Assembly (NCBI RefSeq): GCF_028867705.1
Contig: NZ_CP066171.1
Location: 558,001 to 622,000, forward strand
Reading direction: 5' to 3'
Origin: Thermoleophilum album
Lineage (GTDB): Bacteria; Actinomycetota; Thermoleophilia; Solirubrobacterales; Thermoleophilaceae
Length of the DNA stretch: 64,000 nucleotides
The position numbers and the translations under genes were made by a program. Of the stretch, positions 55,450-62,676 are shown piece after piece; within the stretch, counting starts at the first letter, position 1; each line of letters opens with the position of its first letter. The notes under the pieces were generated by a model, which worked only from the letters and a program-made list of their open reading frames with translations, searched no databases and was not told the origin of the DNA.

Positions 55450-56859
55450 TCAGCGGCGCTTCGGCCGCCAGCGCAAGGTGGCGCGGGCGCGACGGCTGTT
55501 GCCCGCCAGGTCGCGCGCGGTCACCCAGACGCGCAGCGTCAGCGTGCGTCCGCGTCGCGCCTCGCGGCGCGCGATCGTCGCCCAGCGCTTGCCGAGCGAC
55601 AGCCGCACGCGGCGTGTGCGGTTCGCCTGCAATTGGAGTCTGCGCGGCTTCGGGCGAGTTATGCGCACGCTGCGCTTGCCGTACGAGAACGTCGCTGTCA
55701 AGGTCGCGCGGGCGTTCTCGTCGGCGCGCACCGACAGCAGCGGCGCGCGCCCACGAGCGACGCTCGTCGCCCCGCTGAGCTTGACCCTGAGCGCAGGGGG
55801 GCGCCTGTCGCTCGCCGCAGGTGTGCAGATTGCAAAGTCCTCGGCCTGGGCGGCACGGAGCGCCGCGCGCGGCAAGCGGCCGAGCGCGATCGCGCCGCGG
55901 ACGGTGCGCCGGTTGCCGGCGGCGTCGCGCGCGCTCACCGCGATCACCGCGCCGACAGCGCGCCGGCGCGCGAGGCGTGACCGTACGAAGCTGCGCGCAC
56001 GCCGACCGAGCGCTATGCGCAAGCGCACGGTGCGGTTGGCGCGCAAACGCAAGCGCTTGCCGCGCGCGCCGAGCAAGCGCAAGCGCCGCTTGCCGTCCGT
56101 CAGCGCGGCGGTGACCGTTCCCGAGGCAGGCTCGTCGGTGCGCACCCACACCGTGAGCGGCCGCCCGCGGCGCAACGCGCTGCGGCTCTGCAGGCGCAAA
56201 CGCACGATCGGCGGGCGGCGGTCGCCCGCTGCCAGCGGCGGAGCGCATGCGGGGGGCGGGGAGGCGCCGGCACCAGCGTCGGCACGCCAGACCAGGTCGA
56301 ACGCGACTCGCGACCCCTGGAAGCGGTTGTCGAGCGTCGCGGGAACCGTGGCGCGCAGTCGGAAAACGCGACCGCTCTGCGGCGCCAAATTGCCTAGTGG
56401 CACCGCTTGCATGCCTGTCAGAGAGCCGCGGTAGACGAGCGCCGCGCGCTGCGGGTCGGTGCGGTCCCACAGCTCGATGGCGACACTTCCGGCGAGATCA
56501 CCGCCGCTGGTGCGCATGTTCGCCGCGCTGGCGCGAAGGGCACCCGCCACCGTGCCGGTGTTGCGAACCGTCACCGTGCCTTCGGCGCTGCCGCCCGGCG
56601 CCAGCTTGGCGGTGCGCAGCACCGGGGCGTTGCCCACCGAGGTCGCGAGCCCGAGCGAGCCGCCGCTGGCGGTCAAGGCGAGCGGCACGCCGGCGGAGCG
56701 CGGTGGCGCCGGGGCGACGAGCGCCGCCGCAGCGGTCGCCAGCGCCGCGGTCGCGACCGCGAGGTGCCGCGCAGCACCTCGCTTCCATCGCGCTCCGTTC
56801 GGCGCCCGCTGCCGCCGGCGGCTAAGCGCGCCCGATCGCTGTCGTCTCAGAACTCGCAA
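55450..56859 (-). CDS. Secreted TasA/CalY-like protein with two Arg-rich repeat domains
   Basis: 469 residues. A basic N-terminus and signal segment (HLAVATAALATAAAALVAP, about 32-50) are followed by a TasA/CalY-like domain to about 195: KLAPGGSAEGTVTVRNTG, AIELWDRTD, and GSRVAFDLVWRADAG. The rest is two tandem repeats of about 115 residues, each starting DRRPP and ending near ARDAAGNRRT or ARDLAGNSRR, an Ig-like pattern very rich in Arg. TTG 56859 overlaps the previous gene by 13 bases. Last gene of the SipW-type operon; a wall- or DNA-binding anchor is possible. Not a known named protein. Confidence 0.68.
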   Translation of the reverse strand: MRVLRRQRSGALSRRRQRAPNGARWKRGAARHLAVATAALATAAAALVAPAPPRSAGVPLALTASGGSLGLATSVGNAPVLRTAKLAPGGSAEGTVTVRNTGTVAGALRASAANMRTSGGDLAGSVAIELWDRTDPQRAALVYRGSLTGMQAVPLGNLAPQSGRVFRLRATVPATLDNRFQGSRVAFDLVWRADAGAGASPPPACAPPLAAGDRRPPIVRLRLQSRSALRRGRPLTVWVRTDEPASGTVTAALTDGKRRLRLLGARGKRLRLRANRTVRLRIALGRRARSFVRSRLARRRAVGAVIAVSARDAAGNRRTVRGAIALGRLPRAALRAAQAEDFAICTPAASDRRPPALRVKLSGATSVARGRAPLLSVRADENARATLTATFSYGKRSVRITRPKPRRLQLQANRTRRVRLSLGKRWATIARREARRGRTLTLRVWVTARDLAGNSRRARATLRWRPKRR

Positions 56860-57821
56860 TCCGCAGCCCCGCTCTCGTTCACGTTGCCGGTGGCGATCGC
56901 GTTACCGGCGCGGTCGTAGGCGCCAGCGGGCACTGTCCAGGTCATGTTTCCGTTCCCGCCCGCTGTGTTGACGCCTCCGTTCGGAGTGCCGAGCGTCACG
57001 ACGATCGCGTTGCCGGTCCGCTGCATCGTCGAGCCCGTGAAGTTGCGGCTGGCGCCGACGTAGTCGCTGCGGCCCAGCGACAGCGGGTTGGCGACCGGCA
57101 GCTGCGTCGTGTTGGCGGCGTTCCGAACGGTCAGGCGGTCGTCCAGCAACAGGCCGTCGACGATCCGCACGGTCACCGTCGTCGGACTGCCATCCCAGCC
57201 GGCGAGGATCGACTGCGGGTCGATCGGCTCCGAGTAGGTGAAGGTGACGGTGTCGCCGCTCTCGGGCCGGCAGGCTGTCGCGCCACCGTTCTGCGTTTGC
57301 ACGTCGACGCCCTGGGGAGCGGTGTTGTCGACGTTGGCGGTGTAGGGGCCGAACGTCCCGGCGTTGCCAGCGTTGTCGGTGGTGGCGATCGAGAAGCTGT
57401 AGACGCCCGCGGCTAGCGGGTTCTGGGCGGTGAGCGCTGCCGAGCGGTAGTTGTAGGTCTGACCGCCAACCGTGTAGCTGCCTGCGACGAGCGTCACCGC
57501 CGTCTGGCCGCTCGTGAGCGAGGAGACGTTGGCGGTCACGGTGGCGATTCCGCTCGGCGGGTTGCCGGAATCGGCGATCTGCGCGTAGACGTAGTACTGG
57601 CCGCCCTGGCGCACCCAGTCGGGGTCGAAGCCGCTCGTCTTGGCGATCGCCGCGCGCACCACCTGGGGCGGCTTGAAGTCGGGGAGCGTTGCGATCACGT
57701 TGCCGCTGCTCGTCGCCTGTGCCGAGAACGCCCCGAACGCGTGCGCGCCGGCGAGCGCGCCCAGCGTTGCGCATGCTGCCGCGCAGACCGCGAGGGCGCG
57801 TGCGGCCCGTCGCGAGCTCAT
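56847..57821 (-). CDS. Secreted Ig-like protein with SipW-type signal peptide
   Basis: 324 residues from ATG 57821, which overlaps the peptidase stop (ATGA). The signal segment LGALAGAHAFGAFSAQATSS has the AF(x)AFS...TSSGN form of SipW-dependent precursors (SSGNVIATL follows). The mature part has beta-rich Ig-like modules: GGQYYVYAQIADSGNPPSG, SFSIATTDNAGNAGTFGPY, NVDNTAPQGVDV, then a second domain with GDTVTFTYSEPIDPQSI and a closing YDRAGNAIATG. A predicted surface fibre or adhesin component. A longer frame from 58016 is antisense to the peptidase. Confidence 0.75.
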   Translation of the reverse strand: MSSRRAARALAVCAAACATLGALAGAHAFGAFSAQATSSGNVIATLPDFKPPQVVRAAIAKTSGFDPDWVRQGGQYYVYAQIADSGNPPSGIATVTANVSSLTSGQTAVTLVAGSYTVGGQTYNYRSAALTAQNPLAAGVYSFSIATTDNAGNAGTFGPYTANVDNTAPQGVDVQTQNGGATACRPESGDTVTFTYSEPIDPQSILAGWDGSPTTVTVRIVDGLLLDDRLTVRNAANTTQLPVANPLSLGRSDYVGASRNFTGSTMQRTGNAIVVTLGTPNGGVNTAGGNGNMTWTVPAGAYDRAGNAIATGNVNESGAADCEF

Positions 57822-58366
57822 GCCGCCGCTCCTTCGCGCGGGGGTTCGCGCTCCGGGCGCCAGATCTGCCACAGCTCGAGCAAGCACAGCAGCGCTAGCG
57901 GCAGCGCAACGAGCAGGAGCCTCCCGACACGGCCCGCGAGCGGTTGCAGCACCAGGCCGATGCGCGGCAGCCGGAAAACGACGCGCCCGATTCGGCCGTC
58001 GCTCGCGACCGTCCAACGCTCGGCGGCGCTATTGGCATCGCCGCGCGTGACGAAGTGAAGGCGGCCGTCGCGCTCGCGAACCGTGATCACACGGTGGGTG
58101 ATCGTGCGCCCGCTGCCGAGCGGGTCGGCGAAGGCGACGACATCGCCGGGACCGGCGGCACGCGCCGCGATCGGCGCGACGACGACGACGTCGCCTCTGC
58201 GCAAAAGCGGGCGCATGCTGTCGCTCATCTCGGTCATCGGGCGCCACCCGACGACGAGCGGCCCGCCGAGCACCAGCACGAGGCCGACGAGCGCACCCGC
58301 CGCCGACCAGAAGACGAGTCCGAGCGCGGCGGTGGCGGTGGCGAGGAGGCGCCGTGCTGCTCTCAT
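57818..58366 (-). CDS. Signal peptidase I, SipW/ER type
   Basis: 182 residues with an N-terminal membrane segment (about 10-40) and one C-terminal (about 148-168). The active-site Ser is in MSDSMRPLLRRGD; the general base is His in RTITHRVITV rather than Lys, and FVTRGDANSA carries the family Asp. The Ser-His form is that of SipW and eukaryotic/archaeal signal peptidases, which process TasA and related precursors. It overlaps both neighbours by ATGA, so it is cotranscribed with its likely substrates. Not the housekeeping LepB type. Confidence 0.87.
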   Translation of the reverse strand: MRAARRLLATATAALGLVFWSAAGALVGLVLVLGGPLVVGWRPMTEMSDSMRPLLRRGDVVVVAPIAARAAGPGDVVAFADPLGSGRTITHRVITVRERDGRLHFVTRGDANSAAERWTVASDGRIGRVVFRLPRIGLVLQPLAGRVGRLLLVALPLALLCLLELWQIWRPEREPPREGAAA

Positions 58367-58947
58367 CGCGCGCCTCCCGGCTGCTGGCTGCCCCGCCGAC
58401 CACCGTGGGCCGTGGCTGCCCGCCCGCTGCGGCGGACAGGGCGGGTCGCGAGGTCGAGCCGCACGTCGAGCGCACGCGCGGCGAAGCGACGCGCCCGCGG
58501 CCTGGCTTGCAGCTCGAGCACGTACACGCGACGTGCACCTGCCGCCAGGGGAGCCTTGTCGACGAGGGGGCGTCGCGCCGCGCCGAGCGACCGGCGACGC
58601 GCGATCGTGCGGCCCTCGCTGTACACGGCGAACGAGACAGCGCGCGCCAGGGTGCGGTCAGATGCGCTCAGGTGCAGCACGACCATGCGCGGCCGACCGG
58701 AGGCGTTGCGCACGGCTAGGTGCGCCGGAAGCGTGCGACCGGGCTGCAGGGTCCCGGACGCCACGTTTCGCGCCCCGGGCGGCTCGAGCTCTCCCGGAAC
58801 CGTCGCGGTGACCTGTGCGAACGGAGCGGGCGGCTGGCCACGGGGCACCTGTCCGGCGCTAGCGGCTGCAAGCGTCGCCGCGAGACCGGCGGCGAATGCC
58901 AGCGCGCGGGTGGTGCGGCTACGGAGAGGGAGAGCGACCCTGGCCAT
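58363..58947 (-). CDS. Secreted TasA/CalY-like minor protein
   Basis: 194 residues. A signal sequence (ALAFAAGLAATLAAASAG, about 13-30) precedes a beta-rich domain with QVTATVPGELEPPG, ASGTLQPGRTLPAHLAVRNA and MVVLHLSASD, the pattern of the TasA/CalY family in weak form. The C-terminal 40 residues are Arg-rich and basic. gaggag precedes the ATG and its stop overlaps the signal peptidase start. The signal peptide lacks the clear AFS...SSGN motif of its neighbours, so whether SipW or LepB processes it is open. Confidence 0.6.
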   Translation of the reverse strand: MARVALPLRSRTTRALAFAAGLAATLAAASAGQVPRGQPPAPFAQVTATVPGELEPPGARNVASGTLQPGRTLPAHLAVRNASGRPRMVVLHLSASDRTLARAVSFAVYSEGRTIARRRSLGAARRPLVDKAPLAAGARRVYVLELQARPRARRFAARALDVRLDLATRPVRRSGRAATAHGGRRGSQQPGGAR

Positions 58948-59007
58948 CTGCGTGCTCCTCGCCGTGGTTCCCGGCGGTTAGCGCCGGGCACCGCGCCGTC
59001 CCTCGGC

Positions 59008-59043
59008 CATCGCCCGGCCGACGCTGCGGTCGGCCGGGCGATG
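59008..59043 (-). terminator. Fifteen-base perfect hairpin after the first fibre gene
   Basis: Arms at 59008-59022 and 59029-59043 with a six-base loop and no U-run, 22 bases after the stop of the gene at 59065. It may act as partial terminator or mRNA stabiliser so that the first protein is made in excess of those downstream. Confidence 0.6.
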
Positions 59044-59064
59044 CTGTGGCGGGGGACCGGCGGT

Positions 59065-59646
59065 TCAGTTGTTACGCGCTTCCCAGACGAAGGAGTGCGA
59101 GCCGGTGGTCAGGCCCTGCGCGTTGTTGTCGTCCTGCACCGACACCGTCACGCGGAAGACGAGCTCGTCGCTCGGGTTCCACTGCGTCTGCGAGCCGGGG
59201 TTGACGGCAAGGCCGTTAGCCCAACCGCTGTAGCTCGACGCGAAGTTCTGCAGGCTGCCCGTGTACACCGTCGCTTGTGGGGTGAAGCCGGTGCAGCTCG
59301 GGAACGACGGGCTTGCCTGCGTGCCCTTCTCGACCGTCAGGTTCACGTAGGGGGCAAGGGAACCGACGGTGCCGCTCAGGTACATCTTGACACCGGCGGG
59401 TAGCGAGCCCGTGTAGCTGACGCGGATGCAGCGCTGCACGGTGTTGTTCGGCGCCTGGTTGGTGAGGTTGTAGAGCGCTGCGCCGGCGTCGTTATCGGAA
59501 ATGACGACGGTACCGGTGGAGACGCTGTTGCCGGGGTTCGTCGTCGAGCTCGAGAACGCCGAGAAGGCGGCGTAGCCGGCGAGCGACCCGAGCACACCGA
59601 CTGTTGCGACCGTGGCGAGGACCTTCCTTGAACGCGAGCGAGCCAT
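59065..59646 (-). CDS. TasA/CalY-like secreted fibre protein with SipW-type signal peptide
   Basis: 193 residues. The signal VLATVATVGVLGSLAGYAAF runs into SAFSSSTTNPGNSVSTGTV, the SipW-dependent AF-S-S...GN form. The mature part shows VISDNDAGAALYNLTNQ, CIRVSYTGSLPAGVKMYLS, PSFPSCTGFTPQATVYTG, and a closing VFRVTVSVQDDN and SFVWEARNN, matching the TasA/CalY beta-sandwich outline. Two Cys may bond. AGGAGG is 11 bases before the ATG. It is first in the five-gene operon, has a long leader and a strong hairpin after it, as expected for an abundant structural subunit. Confidence 0.78.
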   Translation of the reverse strand: MARSRSRKVLATVATVGVLGSLAGYAAFSAFSSSTTNPGNSVSTGTVVISDNDAGAALYNLTNQAPNNTVQRCIRVSYTGSLPAGVKMYLSGTVGSLAPYVNLTVEKGTQASPSFPSCTGFTPQATVYTGSLQNFASSYSGWANGLAVNPGSQTQWNPSDELVFRVTVSVQDDNNAQGLTTGSHSFVWEARNN

Positions 59647-60046: not shown

Positions 60047-61195
60047 GTGTCGAGCGCAAGCGAAGACGCTCCAGCAGCAGCCCACCATGGCCTGCTCAGC
60101 CCCCCTGCACTCGCCGACGAGAAGCGGTTGGCGATGCGCGTCGCGGGTGCGCTCTGGACGGTCGGCGGCGCGACGATCGTAGCGGTCGGCCTTTTCGCCT
60201 ATGCCGATCCGGTGGTGCACCGCGTGGTGCTTGCGGTCGGCGGCGGGGCGCTCGGCTGGGGCTGCCTGTGCCTTGTGTTTTTGCGCGGCGAGCGTGTCGC
60301 CGATTGGGTTTGGCACACGCCGGCGGTCGCGGGAGTCGTGGCGAGCACCTATGCGAGCCTCGTCGTCGGCGCCGGCTCGCCCTTCCGCTTCTACCCGCTC
60401 TTCATCCTCCTCTACTGCTCCTTCTTCTTTCCCTGGCACCAGGCGCGGCGCTACTTCCCCCTCGCGACGTTTGGCTACCTGCTCGCCACGCTCGGGCCGA
60501 CGATCGACCCGTTGCGCGCGCTCGCTGCGGTGGGCGCCGCCGGCGCCGGCCGACGCGCGCTGCTCGGCGAGGCGTTCGTGCTGGTGCCGATGTTCTGGAC
60601 CTGGTCGCTATTGGCGGCGCGTGCGCGCGAGGCGGCGCGTCGGTGGCGTGAGCGTGAGCGCCGCCGGGCGCTGACCGACCAGCTCACCGGGCTCGCCAAC
60701 CGGCGCGCTTTGCTCGCTCGTCTCGAGACCGAACTTGCCCGGTCCGATGGGGCTGGCACGGGTCTCGTGGTCGTCGACCTCGACGGCTTTAAACAGTTCA
60801 ACACCAAGTTCGGCTATCTCGTCGGCGACCGCGTGATCGTGGCGGTCGCGCGGCGTCTGCGGCGAGTCGTGCGCGACCAGGACCTGTTGGTGCGTCTCGG
60901 TGGCGACGAGTTCGCGATCGTCGTCGGCGAAGCCGACGCCAGCGTCGTCGATCAGGTGGCGCAACGCGCGGTCGCTGCGGTGCCGTGCAGCGCGGGCGAG
61001 CTCGGTTTGAGGGAAGCGCCCGACCAGCCGCTCGGCGCCAGCGCCGGAGCGGCGATCGCACCCCGCGACGGCGCCACGGCCGACGAGCTGATCGCCGCGG
61101 CCGACGCGCGCGTGCGGGCGGCGAAACAGAACGGCAAGGGGATCGCTCTCGGCGTCGGGCTGGCGCGGGCGGACGCTAGCCTGGCGCGCCCGTGA
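60047..61195 (+). CDS. Diguanylate cyclase (membrane, GGDEF)
   Basis: Makes c-di-GMP from two GTP. The 382 residues have about five or six membrane segments in the first 180 (e.g. WTVGGATIVAVGLFAYAD, FILLYCSFFFPW), no named sensor domain, then a short helix and the GGDEF domain: DQLTGLANRRALLARLE, GLVVVDLDGFKQFN, and LGGDEFAIVV near 285. An RxxD inhibitory site (RDQD) lies five residues before GGDEF, so product feedback is likely. It is divergent from the SipW/TasA-like operon and overlaps the GT4 gene (GTGA). Confidence 0.92.
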   Translation: MSSASEDAPAAAHHGLLSPPALADEKRLAMRVAGALWTVGGATIVAVGLFAYADPVVHRVVLAVGGGALGWGCLCLVFLRGERVADWVWHTPAVAGVVASTYASLVVGAGSPFRFYPLFILLYCSFFFPWHQARRYFPLATFGYLLATLGPTIDPLRALAAVGAAGAGRRALLGEAFVLVPMFWTWSLLAARAREAARRWRERERRRALTDQLTGLANRRALLARLETELARSDGAGTGLVVVDLDGFKQFNTKFGYLVGDRVIVAVARRLRRVVRDQDLLVRLGGDEFAIVVGEADASVVDQVAQRAVAAVPCSAGELGLREAPDQPLGASAGAAIAPRDGATADELIAAADARVRAAKQNGKGIALGVGLARADASLARP

Positions 61196-62676
61196 ACGCC
61201 GACGGCCACGTCACCGGCGCGACCGGCGCCGAGCCTACGAGCGAGCCCACAGCAGCTCGCCGGCGCGTGGTGATGGCGCTCGCCTTCTTCCCGCGCGGTG
61301 GCTCGGCCCAGGTCGCCCGCTACCTCGCCCGCGGTCTCGGGCCCGCCGGCTGGGACACGACGATCGTCTGCGGCTCGCTCGGCCGCGCCGGGGAACCTTC
61401 GCACGCAGCCAGCTTCTACGCCGGCCTCGACGTGCACGCGGTCGACTTCACCGCTGCGGCGCAGGCGCCCGACCCGCTCGCTGCCGACCCGCCTTTTCAA
61501 CCCTCGTTCGAGGACCGTCCGGGCGCGCCCGACCGCGTTTACGCGAGCGTCGACGACGCCACGTTCGAGCGCCTGGTGGCGCTGTGGGCGGAAGCGCTCG
61601 ACGCGGCCGGTGCGGCCCGCGCGGACCTTCTCCACCTCCACCACCTCACACCGATCCACGAGGCGGCGTTGCGCCACTTCCCGCACGTGCCGCGCGTTGG
61701 CCACATCCACGGCACCGAGCTCGCGATGCTCGATCGCATCCGCGCCGGCGCCCCAGCCGGCTGGCGCTACGCCGACCGTTGGGCCGAGCGGATGCGCCGC
61801 TGGGCGCAGTCGTGCGACCGGCTGCTCGTGCTCTCGCCGGAGGCGGTCGCTCGCGTGCCCGCCGAGCTCGGGGTCGATCCGGACAGGGTCGTCTGGGCTC
61901 CGAACGGTTTCGATCCGCAGGCTTTCGACCGGCGTCCGGCGGCGCCCCCCGAGCGCCGGGCGCTGTGGCAGCGCTGGCTGGTGGAGGAGCCGCGCGGCTG
62001 GGACGAGAGCGGGCGACCCGGGACCGTCGCCTACCGGCCCGAGGACCTCGAGTGTTTTGCCGGCGACGCTGTCACGTTCGTCTTCGTCGGCCGCTTCACG
62101 GCGATGAAACGGGTGCCGCTCCTCGTCCGCGCGCATGCGCGCGCGCTGCGCGAGCTCGACGTGCCGGCACCGCTCGTGATCGTCGGCGGTTTCCCCGGCG
62201 AGTGGGAGGGCGAACATCCGTTGGCGGCGATCCGTGCGACTAGCAACCGCTACGCGTTCCTCGCCGGCTGGCACGGCCACGACGAGCTGCCGCAGGCGCT
62301 CAACGCCGCCGACGTCTTCGTGCTGCCCTCGGTGCGCGAGGAGTTCGGCGCGGTGATCGTCGAGGCGATGGCCTGCGGGCTCCCGGCGATCGTCGTGAAC
62401 GCCTACGGTCCGGCCGAGATCGTCGCCGACGGCGAGACCGGTTGGCTCGTGCCGCCCGATGACGAGCAGGCACTGGCTCGCGCGCTCGTCGAGGCCGCTA
62501 GCGACAGCGAAGGGCGGCGCGCCCGCGGCGAGCGCGCCTACGCCGAGGCGCGCCGCCGCTACGGCTGGCCGGCGCTGGCGCGCGGCTTGGCGGCGGTCTA
62601 CGACGACGTGGTGACAGGGCGCCCGCCGCGCGAGGGCAGCCACACGCTGGTGGCTAGCGACCATCCCGGCCGCTAA
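61192..62676 (+). CDS. Glycosyltransferase family 4
   Basis: 494 residues, GT-B fold. The N-terminal half has FFPRGGSAQVARYLARGL and HLHHLTPIHEAALRHFP; the C-terminal half VGRFTAMKRVPLLVRAHARA, FLAGWHGHDELPQALNAADV, the donor-binding PSVREEFGAVIVEAMACGLP and GPAEIVADGETGWLVPP. An extra loop of about 60 residues (around 250-310) is unusual. GTG 61192 overlaps the diguanylate cyclase stop, so surface glycan work and c-di-GMP signalling are coupled in expression. Acceptor unknown. Confidence 0.9.
   Translation: MNADGHVTGATGAEPTSEPTAARRRVVMALAFFPRGGSAQVARYLARGLGPAGWDTTIVCGSLGRAGEPSHAASFYAGLDVHAVDFTAAAQAPDPLAADPPFQPSFEDRPGAPDRVYASVDDATFERLVALWAEALDAAGAARADLLHLHHLTPIHEAALRHFPHVPRVGHIHGTELAMLDRIRAGAPAGWRYADRWAERMRRWAQSCDRLLVLSPEAVARVPAELGVDPDRVVWAPNGFDPQAFDRRPAAPPERRALWQRWLVEEPRGWDESGRPGTVAYRPEDLECFAGDAVTFVFVGRFTAMKRVPLLVRAHARALRELDVPAPLVIVGGFPGEWEGEHPLAAIRATSNRYAFLAGWHGHDELPQALNAADVFVLPSVREEFGAVIVEAMACGLPAIVVNAYGPAEIVADGETGWLVPPDDEQALARALVEAASDSEGRRARGERAYAEARRRYGWPALARGLAAVYDDVVTGRPPREGSHTLVASDHPGR

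Follow-up and report, generated by a model that had tools for sequence, protein, structure and literature searches.

Layout of the five-gene operon

In the window, the 64,000-nucleotide stretch of Thermoleophilum album DNA analyzed here (positions 558001-622000 of the single-contig 2.11-Mb genome), open reading frame analysis placed five consecutive minus-strand genes, g1 to g5, running from position 59646 down to 55450. g1 (59065..59646, 193 amino acids (aa)) encodes a TasA/camelysin-family protein, the predicted major filament subunit, and g2 (58363..58947, 194 aa) a small protein with a TasA-like domain and no SipW-type cleavage site. The product of g3 (57818..58366, 182 aa) is a SipW-type, that is endoplasmic reticulum (ER)-type, signal peptidase by its profile matches. 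g4 (56847..57821, 324 aa) codes for an immunoglobulin (Ig)-like protein with a g1-type signal peptide and N-terminal segment, a predicted filament starter or cap, and g5 (55450..56859, 469 aa, TTG start) for a protein with an N-terminal TasA-like domain and two basic Ig-like repeats (isoelectric point about 12). Since orthologues of all five open reading frames are found in other genomes, arranged in the same order, they were considered genes and not chance occurrences. Overlaps of 4 nt (g2/g3 and g3/g4) and 13 nt (g4/g5) make g2, g3, g4 and g5 look translationally coupled. A preliminary description of the locus, made from the sequence alone, had all five genes in coupled order; the genes lie where it placed them and g2 to g5 do overlap, but g1 is set apart by a gap of 117 nt.

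Profile comparisons assign the g1 family to the TasA/camelysin family (PF12389). In an alignment of 28 sequences, 23 g1 homologues matched PF12389 at E<=0.1 (best 5.9e-11), and four of them passed its cut-off of 22.5 bits (34.7, 29.1, 35.8 and 29.4 bits), the 34.7-bit scorer being an orthologue 56% identical to g1. The NCBIfam TasA model NF046066 was matched by 10 of the 28 sequences. When the g1 family profile was compared with the PDB, the top two matches, which covered the initial strands of the mature domain, were TasA (5of1/8aur, E 0.008-0.009), while this search returned no TasA-related donor-strand filament structure from outside Bacillus; g1 alone found no matches in the PDB. Searching the whole 2.1-Mb genome with the g1 profile detected three places only, namely g1, g5 and the N-terminus of g4, all within the operon. 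Together with the g5-g1 profile link and the g3 match described below, these tests bear out the TasA/SipW assignment of the preliminary description, which had asked whether the folds might be unrelated to TasA; sequence comparison does relate the family to TasA. Cys73 and Cys118 of g1 are nearly invariant in the family, with Cys73 replaced in genomes L052 and L053, which suggests a conserved disulfide.

The Pfam family bears the name Camelysin metallo-endopeptidase or Peptidase_M73, which would fit a secreted camelysin-like metalloprotease system. As no HExxH zinc motif is visible in g1 or its alignment, the protease reading was rejected, and among solved structures the relatives identified were TasA matrix proteins; we regard such a system as extremely improbable.

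The g3 product matched TIGR02228 with 72.8 bits (cut-off 51.85) and the Bacillus SipW equivalog NF046067 with 56.9 bits, under the cut-off of 190. These scores place g3 among the SipW-type peptidases, though outside the Bacillus equivalog. Its family profile identified SEC11C/SEC11A in the PDB (E ~1e-20), and S50, H91 and D110 are invariant across 19 homologues, in keeping with the Ser-His signal peptidase described previously. The predicted catalytic residues Ser50 and His91 are encoded by the minus-strand codons 58217-58219 and 58094-58096, respectively. A second TIGR02228 match in a sub-cut-off range (26.9 bits) was located at G000:C1:876830-877015 (L002), where the g1 profile finds no TasA-like gene. 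The 677-aa open reading frame at L050:6151-8181, which adjoins a tasA-like gene, has a SipW-like domain at its N-terminus. SipW-profile matches occurred in 209 of the 299 genomes of the class, a figure that is not a count of SipW genes, as short or weak matches are frequent among them and may represent other S26/S24-type proteins.

Predicted cleavage site and donor segment of g1 and g4

Cleavage of the g1 product is predicted between A27-F28-S29 and A30-F31 (29/30 boundary) and that of the g4 product between F29-G30 and A31-F32 (30/31 boundary). The predicted mature N-terminus and donor strand correspond to residues 30-45 of g1, AFSSSTTNPGNSVSTG (59512..59559, minus strand), and to residues 31-46 of g4, AFSAQATSSGNVIATL (57684..57731, minus strand). 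Past the predicted cleavage site, both proteins have the motif AFxxxTxNxGN in common, in a conserved stretch as long as the donor strand of TasA. Among the 28 g1 homologues, P2' is aromatic in 27 and both P2 and P2' are aromatic in 22; N37, N40 and G45 are conserved in 27, 26 and all 28 sequences, respectively. The g4 orthologues have F at P2' without exception (11/11). Within the operon, the SipW-type site (aromatic-x/x-Phe, the slash marking the cut) is confined to g1 and g4, and the motif was found in none of 12 g2 and none of 9 g5 sequences when the first 75 residues were inspected. The SipW-cognate signal model TIGR04088 had no match in the Thermoleophilum genome itself, though the aromatic P2/P2' site is present, and was matched by 9 of the 28 g1 homologues at E<=0.1. 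We aligned the mature N-terminus of g1 by eye with that of TasA.

In TasA, W at P2 and F at P2' both hinder processing by LepB, and residues P3 to P4' affect it (PMC10269814). The preliminary description had considered that the signal peptides might be cut by LepB only; g1 and g4 carry the aromatic P2 and P2' residues that LepB-type peptidases handle badly (PMC10269814). The TasA donor strand comprises residues 28-38, filaments polymerise through that segment, and F39 is a donor-strand contact residue (PMC9674648). The products of the operon might coat the cell or matrix while staying monomeric or in small assemblies, with no long filaments, given that homology to TasA by itself is no proof of polymerisation. 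However, the N-terminal donor motif of g1 is nearly invariant and is the segment through which TasA polymerises (PMC9674648), and we consider a coat of this kind decidedly improbable.

All 11 g4 orthologues contain a Big_13-like Ig domain followed by a conserved second part. The hhalign comparison of the g1 and g4 alignments gave 93.7%, confined to the signal peptide and N-terminal segment (g1 residues 4-45), with a score of 55.3 compared to at most 18.8 for shuffled columns. This agrees with the earlier characterization of g4 as an Ig-like protein with the same signal form. Mean column identity was 58% for g4, 45% for g1, 37% for g5 and 34% for g2, rough values from differing samples by which g4 appears to be the best conserved of the extracellular proteins of the operon. 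At L039:10497-11786 and L072:6160-7434 the g4 profile matched twice in one frame, in overlapping stretches and with residues ~49-175 both times; g4 of these genomes seems to contain an extra copy of the Ig-like module.

TapA of Bacillus subtilis adopts a complete V-set Ig fold, and its mature N-terminus, AFHDI, is nearly the AFNDI of TasA; the protein donates a strand, is unable to accept one, and starts filaments (PMC10151520). The traits of TapA sought in g4, an Ig-type body, a g1-like N-terminus, a SipW-type cleavage site and a position adjoining sipW, were all found. At E<=1, the g4 family profile matched only the distant 2yn3 among PDB sequences and no TapA chain was returned, and g4 is therefore not filed as a TapA homologue. 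Because it combines an Ig-like body with no detectable TasA likeness, a g1-like donor segment and a SipW-type site with a gene overlapping sipW, g4 is best read as a functional counterpart, not a homologue, of TapA. Thus, Ig-like as it is, it is better viewed as a putative TapA-like starter or cap than as the mere Ig-like partner of the preliminary description.

Likeness of the g1 and g4 segments within and between genomes was compared for pairs from 17 genomes by BLOSUM62 scoring and permutation; we selected the segments manually and designed the test only after inspecting the sequences. For mature residues 3-15, the within-genome score was 30.6 compared to 22.1 between genomes (p ~2e-5), and p ~1e-4 remained after near relatives and outliers were dropped. 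Covariation was strongest at residues 12-15, which alone gave p ~2e-5, while residues 3-11 gave p ~0.001. An earlier automatic version with 11 genomes had yielded p 0.0005. The effect was register-specific: sliding the g4 segment by one residue left p 0.04, sliding by two or three residues abolished it, and none of 26 far offsets (16-116 residues) gave p <0.01. The signal-peptide core did not covary (p 0.14).

Covariation was also seen at the cleavage positions -3 to -1 (p ~0.001). This would be expected if g4 were an ordinary co-secreted Ig-like adhesin or matrix protein beside a TasA-type filament, resembling g1 N-terminally only for SipW recognition and cleavage, and the influence of TasA residues P3 to P4' on LepB processing (PMC10269814) points in the same direction. 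However, the likeness extends to mature residue 15, and residues 12-15, which covary most, lie far past P4'; the covarying stretch also includes the position aligned by eye with the donor-strand contact F39 of TasA (PMC9674648). We therefore hold the adhesin explanation to be unlikely, if the most serious of the alternatives. Selection for the same groove is the best explanation of the covariation of g1 and g4; SipW specificity may explain part of it, and gene conversion may lie behind it as well.

Companion genes, distribution and genomic setting

The g1 and g5 family alignments were linked by hhalign at 98.5% over 137 columns (E 1.6e-15) and those of g2 and g5 at 97.1% (E 6.7e-11), while direct comparison of g1 and g2 gave 5.5% only. 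Column-shuffled controls scored no higher than 16-19, compared to 109, 83 and 55 for the three accepted links (g1-g5, g2-g5 and g1-g4). The g2 and g5 profiles found chance-level matches only in the PDB. It is thus by way of g5 that the description of g2 as TasA-like holds. As previously described, g5 is TasA-like and has Arg-rich repeats (net charge ~+60 over residues 201-469), but its orthologues (L033-L035 and L038-L042) have differing C-termini in which the Arg-rich tail is not conserved, so that by sequence comparison this tail is lineage-specific. HemolysinCabind (RTX) matches were obtained in 2 of 9 g5 sequences. At L038:3738-4757 and L040:9537-10427, g5 orthologues end in Gly/Asp-rich RTX-type calcium-binding repeats instead of basic Ig-like repeats.

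The g1 query had matches in 36 of the 299 genomes of the class. A contig of bacterium HR41 (L033) has the same five genes, and the ten class genomes sampled besides that of the window (L034-L043) have tasA and sipW followed by g4, with one to three tasA genes. In nearly all of these, g2 adjoins tasA upstream of sipW, with no g2 detected in L041, and g5 follows g4 in seven of the ten (L034, L035 and L038-L042). Full-length relatives of g4 also occur outside the class, where L066, L067, L068, L069 and L072 have tasA, g2, sipW and g4, some with a second tasA and mostly without g5. In L045, L047 and L051, the gene after sipW encodes a long TasA-like protein. The preliminary description thought this version of the system undescribed; it is not peculiar to the present genome, and the gene set recurs in many relatives.

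Between g1 and g2 lies a perfect 15-bp inverted repeat with a 6-nt loop (59008..59043, minus strand). It is present in L033, and the L034 version has 12-bp arms and a compensatory change; strong hairpins occupy the equivalent place in L067, L072 and L039 and the second gap of L040, and none was found there in L036 or L037. The inverted repeat showed no T run that would mark a terminator-like site, and neither a promoter scan nor an Rfam search of the region gave a match. A step-down in expression from the main subunit to the minor partners would be a natural reading of the g1-g2 hairpin.

Divergent from g1, a GGDEF diguanylate cyclase is encoded on the plus strand (60047..61195; PF00990, 123 bits) and is a possible regulator; it is found at the same place in L033 and L034, within the genus. 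It is followed by a GT4-type glycosyltransferase gene (61192..62676, plus strand; PF00534, 119 bits), listed as context with only possible operon membership, which, within the family, still adjoins the operon in L034, L035 and L039. Divergent from the operon, this pair at 60047-62676 suggests a matrix locus linked to cyclic di-GMP. On the other flank, a short-chain dehydrogenase is kept within the family, as judged from sequence likeness.

Proposed filament and relation to known systems

Gene order, its conservation, the homologies, the cleavage motif and the covariation of g1 and g4 are observed. From these we infer export, cleavage, donor-strand assembly, end positions, attachment and a role in biofilms, and we consider it probable that the products of the operon form an exported TasA-type filament of the surface or matrix through donor-strand assembly, with g4 as its starter or cap. 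According to this model, g1, the main subunit, and g4 would be exported via Sec and cut by g3 at aromatic-x/x-Phe, exposing the extended N-terminal segment AFxxxTxNxGN. Acting as donor strand, the g1 segment would occupy the groove of the neighboring g1 subunit, and a linear filament would result. In g4, this donor segment would be joined to an Ig-like body of its own that has no TasA-like groove; g4 could then provide a strand but accept none, and would sit at one filament end, starting or capping the filament like TapA in B. subtilis. The TasA-like proteins g2 and g5, without SipW site or donor motif, would probably occupy the opposite end or the cell surface. The variable g5 tail may serve as an attachment module, since tails are swapped among orthologues as expected for such a module. 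A broader proposal, which we advance tentatively, is that of a widespread filament system of the Actinomycetota in which g4 co-evolves with the donor strand as a conserved starter or cap and g2 and g5 occupy the opposite, cell-facing end, a start-shaft-anchor set in one operon.

Several results, besides the covariation of the cleavage positions, by which the shared segment could partly serve SipW recognition, speak against the filament model. The window g1 itself matched PF12389 with only 14.9 bits, below the cut-off, and the PDB match of its family profile to TasA is weak though top-ranked. The link of g2 to TasA is indirect. AlphaFold models built from two near-identical sequences only had a pLDDT (predicted local distance difference test) of 55 and a pTM (predicted template modeling score) of 0.59 for g1, mostly beta, and a pLDDT of 34 for g4; Foldseek with the low-confidence g1 model gave generic low-score beta-sandwich matches and TasA was not among the top ones. 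Moreover, L044 and L046 contain tasA-g2-sipW with no g4 detected, indicating that g4 is not needed everywhere.

The operon resembles tapA-sipW-tasA of B. subtilis in its TasA-family subunit, in a dedicated ER-type peptidase of the SipW group whose gene overlaps its neighbor, in the aromatic P2/P2' site and in an Ig-type partner that resembles the subunit in its mature N-terminus. In contrast to TapA, which is not conserved even among Bacillus (PMC10151520), g4 is of the Big_13 type, is encoded after sipW and is conserved across families and beyond the class; the additional TasA-like-domain proteins g2 and g5 and the two nearly invariant g1 cysteines are further differences. With the sipW-tasA/calY/capP region of Bacillus cereus it shares a dedicated SipW, a separate assembly helper (CapP in that species) and, in many relatives of the operon, paralogous TasA-type subunits. 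CapP has a repetitive C-terminal domain besides its DUF4047 region (PMC13082335); unlike there, DUF4047 was not among the Pfam matches for the operon proteins and their orthologues. TasA-related donor-strand filaments outside Bacillus are cited in passages of PMC9674648 and PMC10151520.

Detailed knowledge of TasA filaments comes mainly from Bacillus. The recurrence of the gene set in many relatives indicates that the distribution of this TasA-type fibre system extends far past Bacillus. In the present operon, a candidate starter whose donor strand mirrors that of the subunit is retained in many genomes, along with two acceptor-like partners with swappable tails, and the proposed roles of starter, shaft and anchor are directly testable. 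Covariation of the kind seen between g1 and g4 may further provide a sequence signal for predicting proteins that have a donor groove in common.

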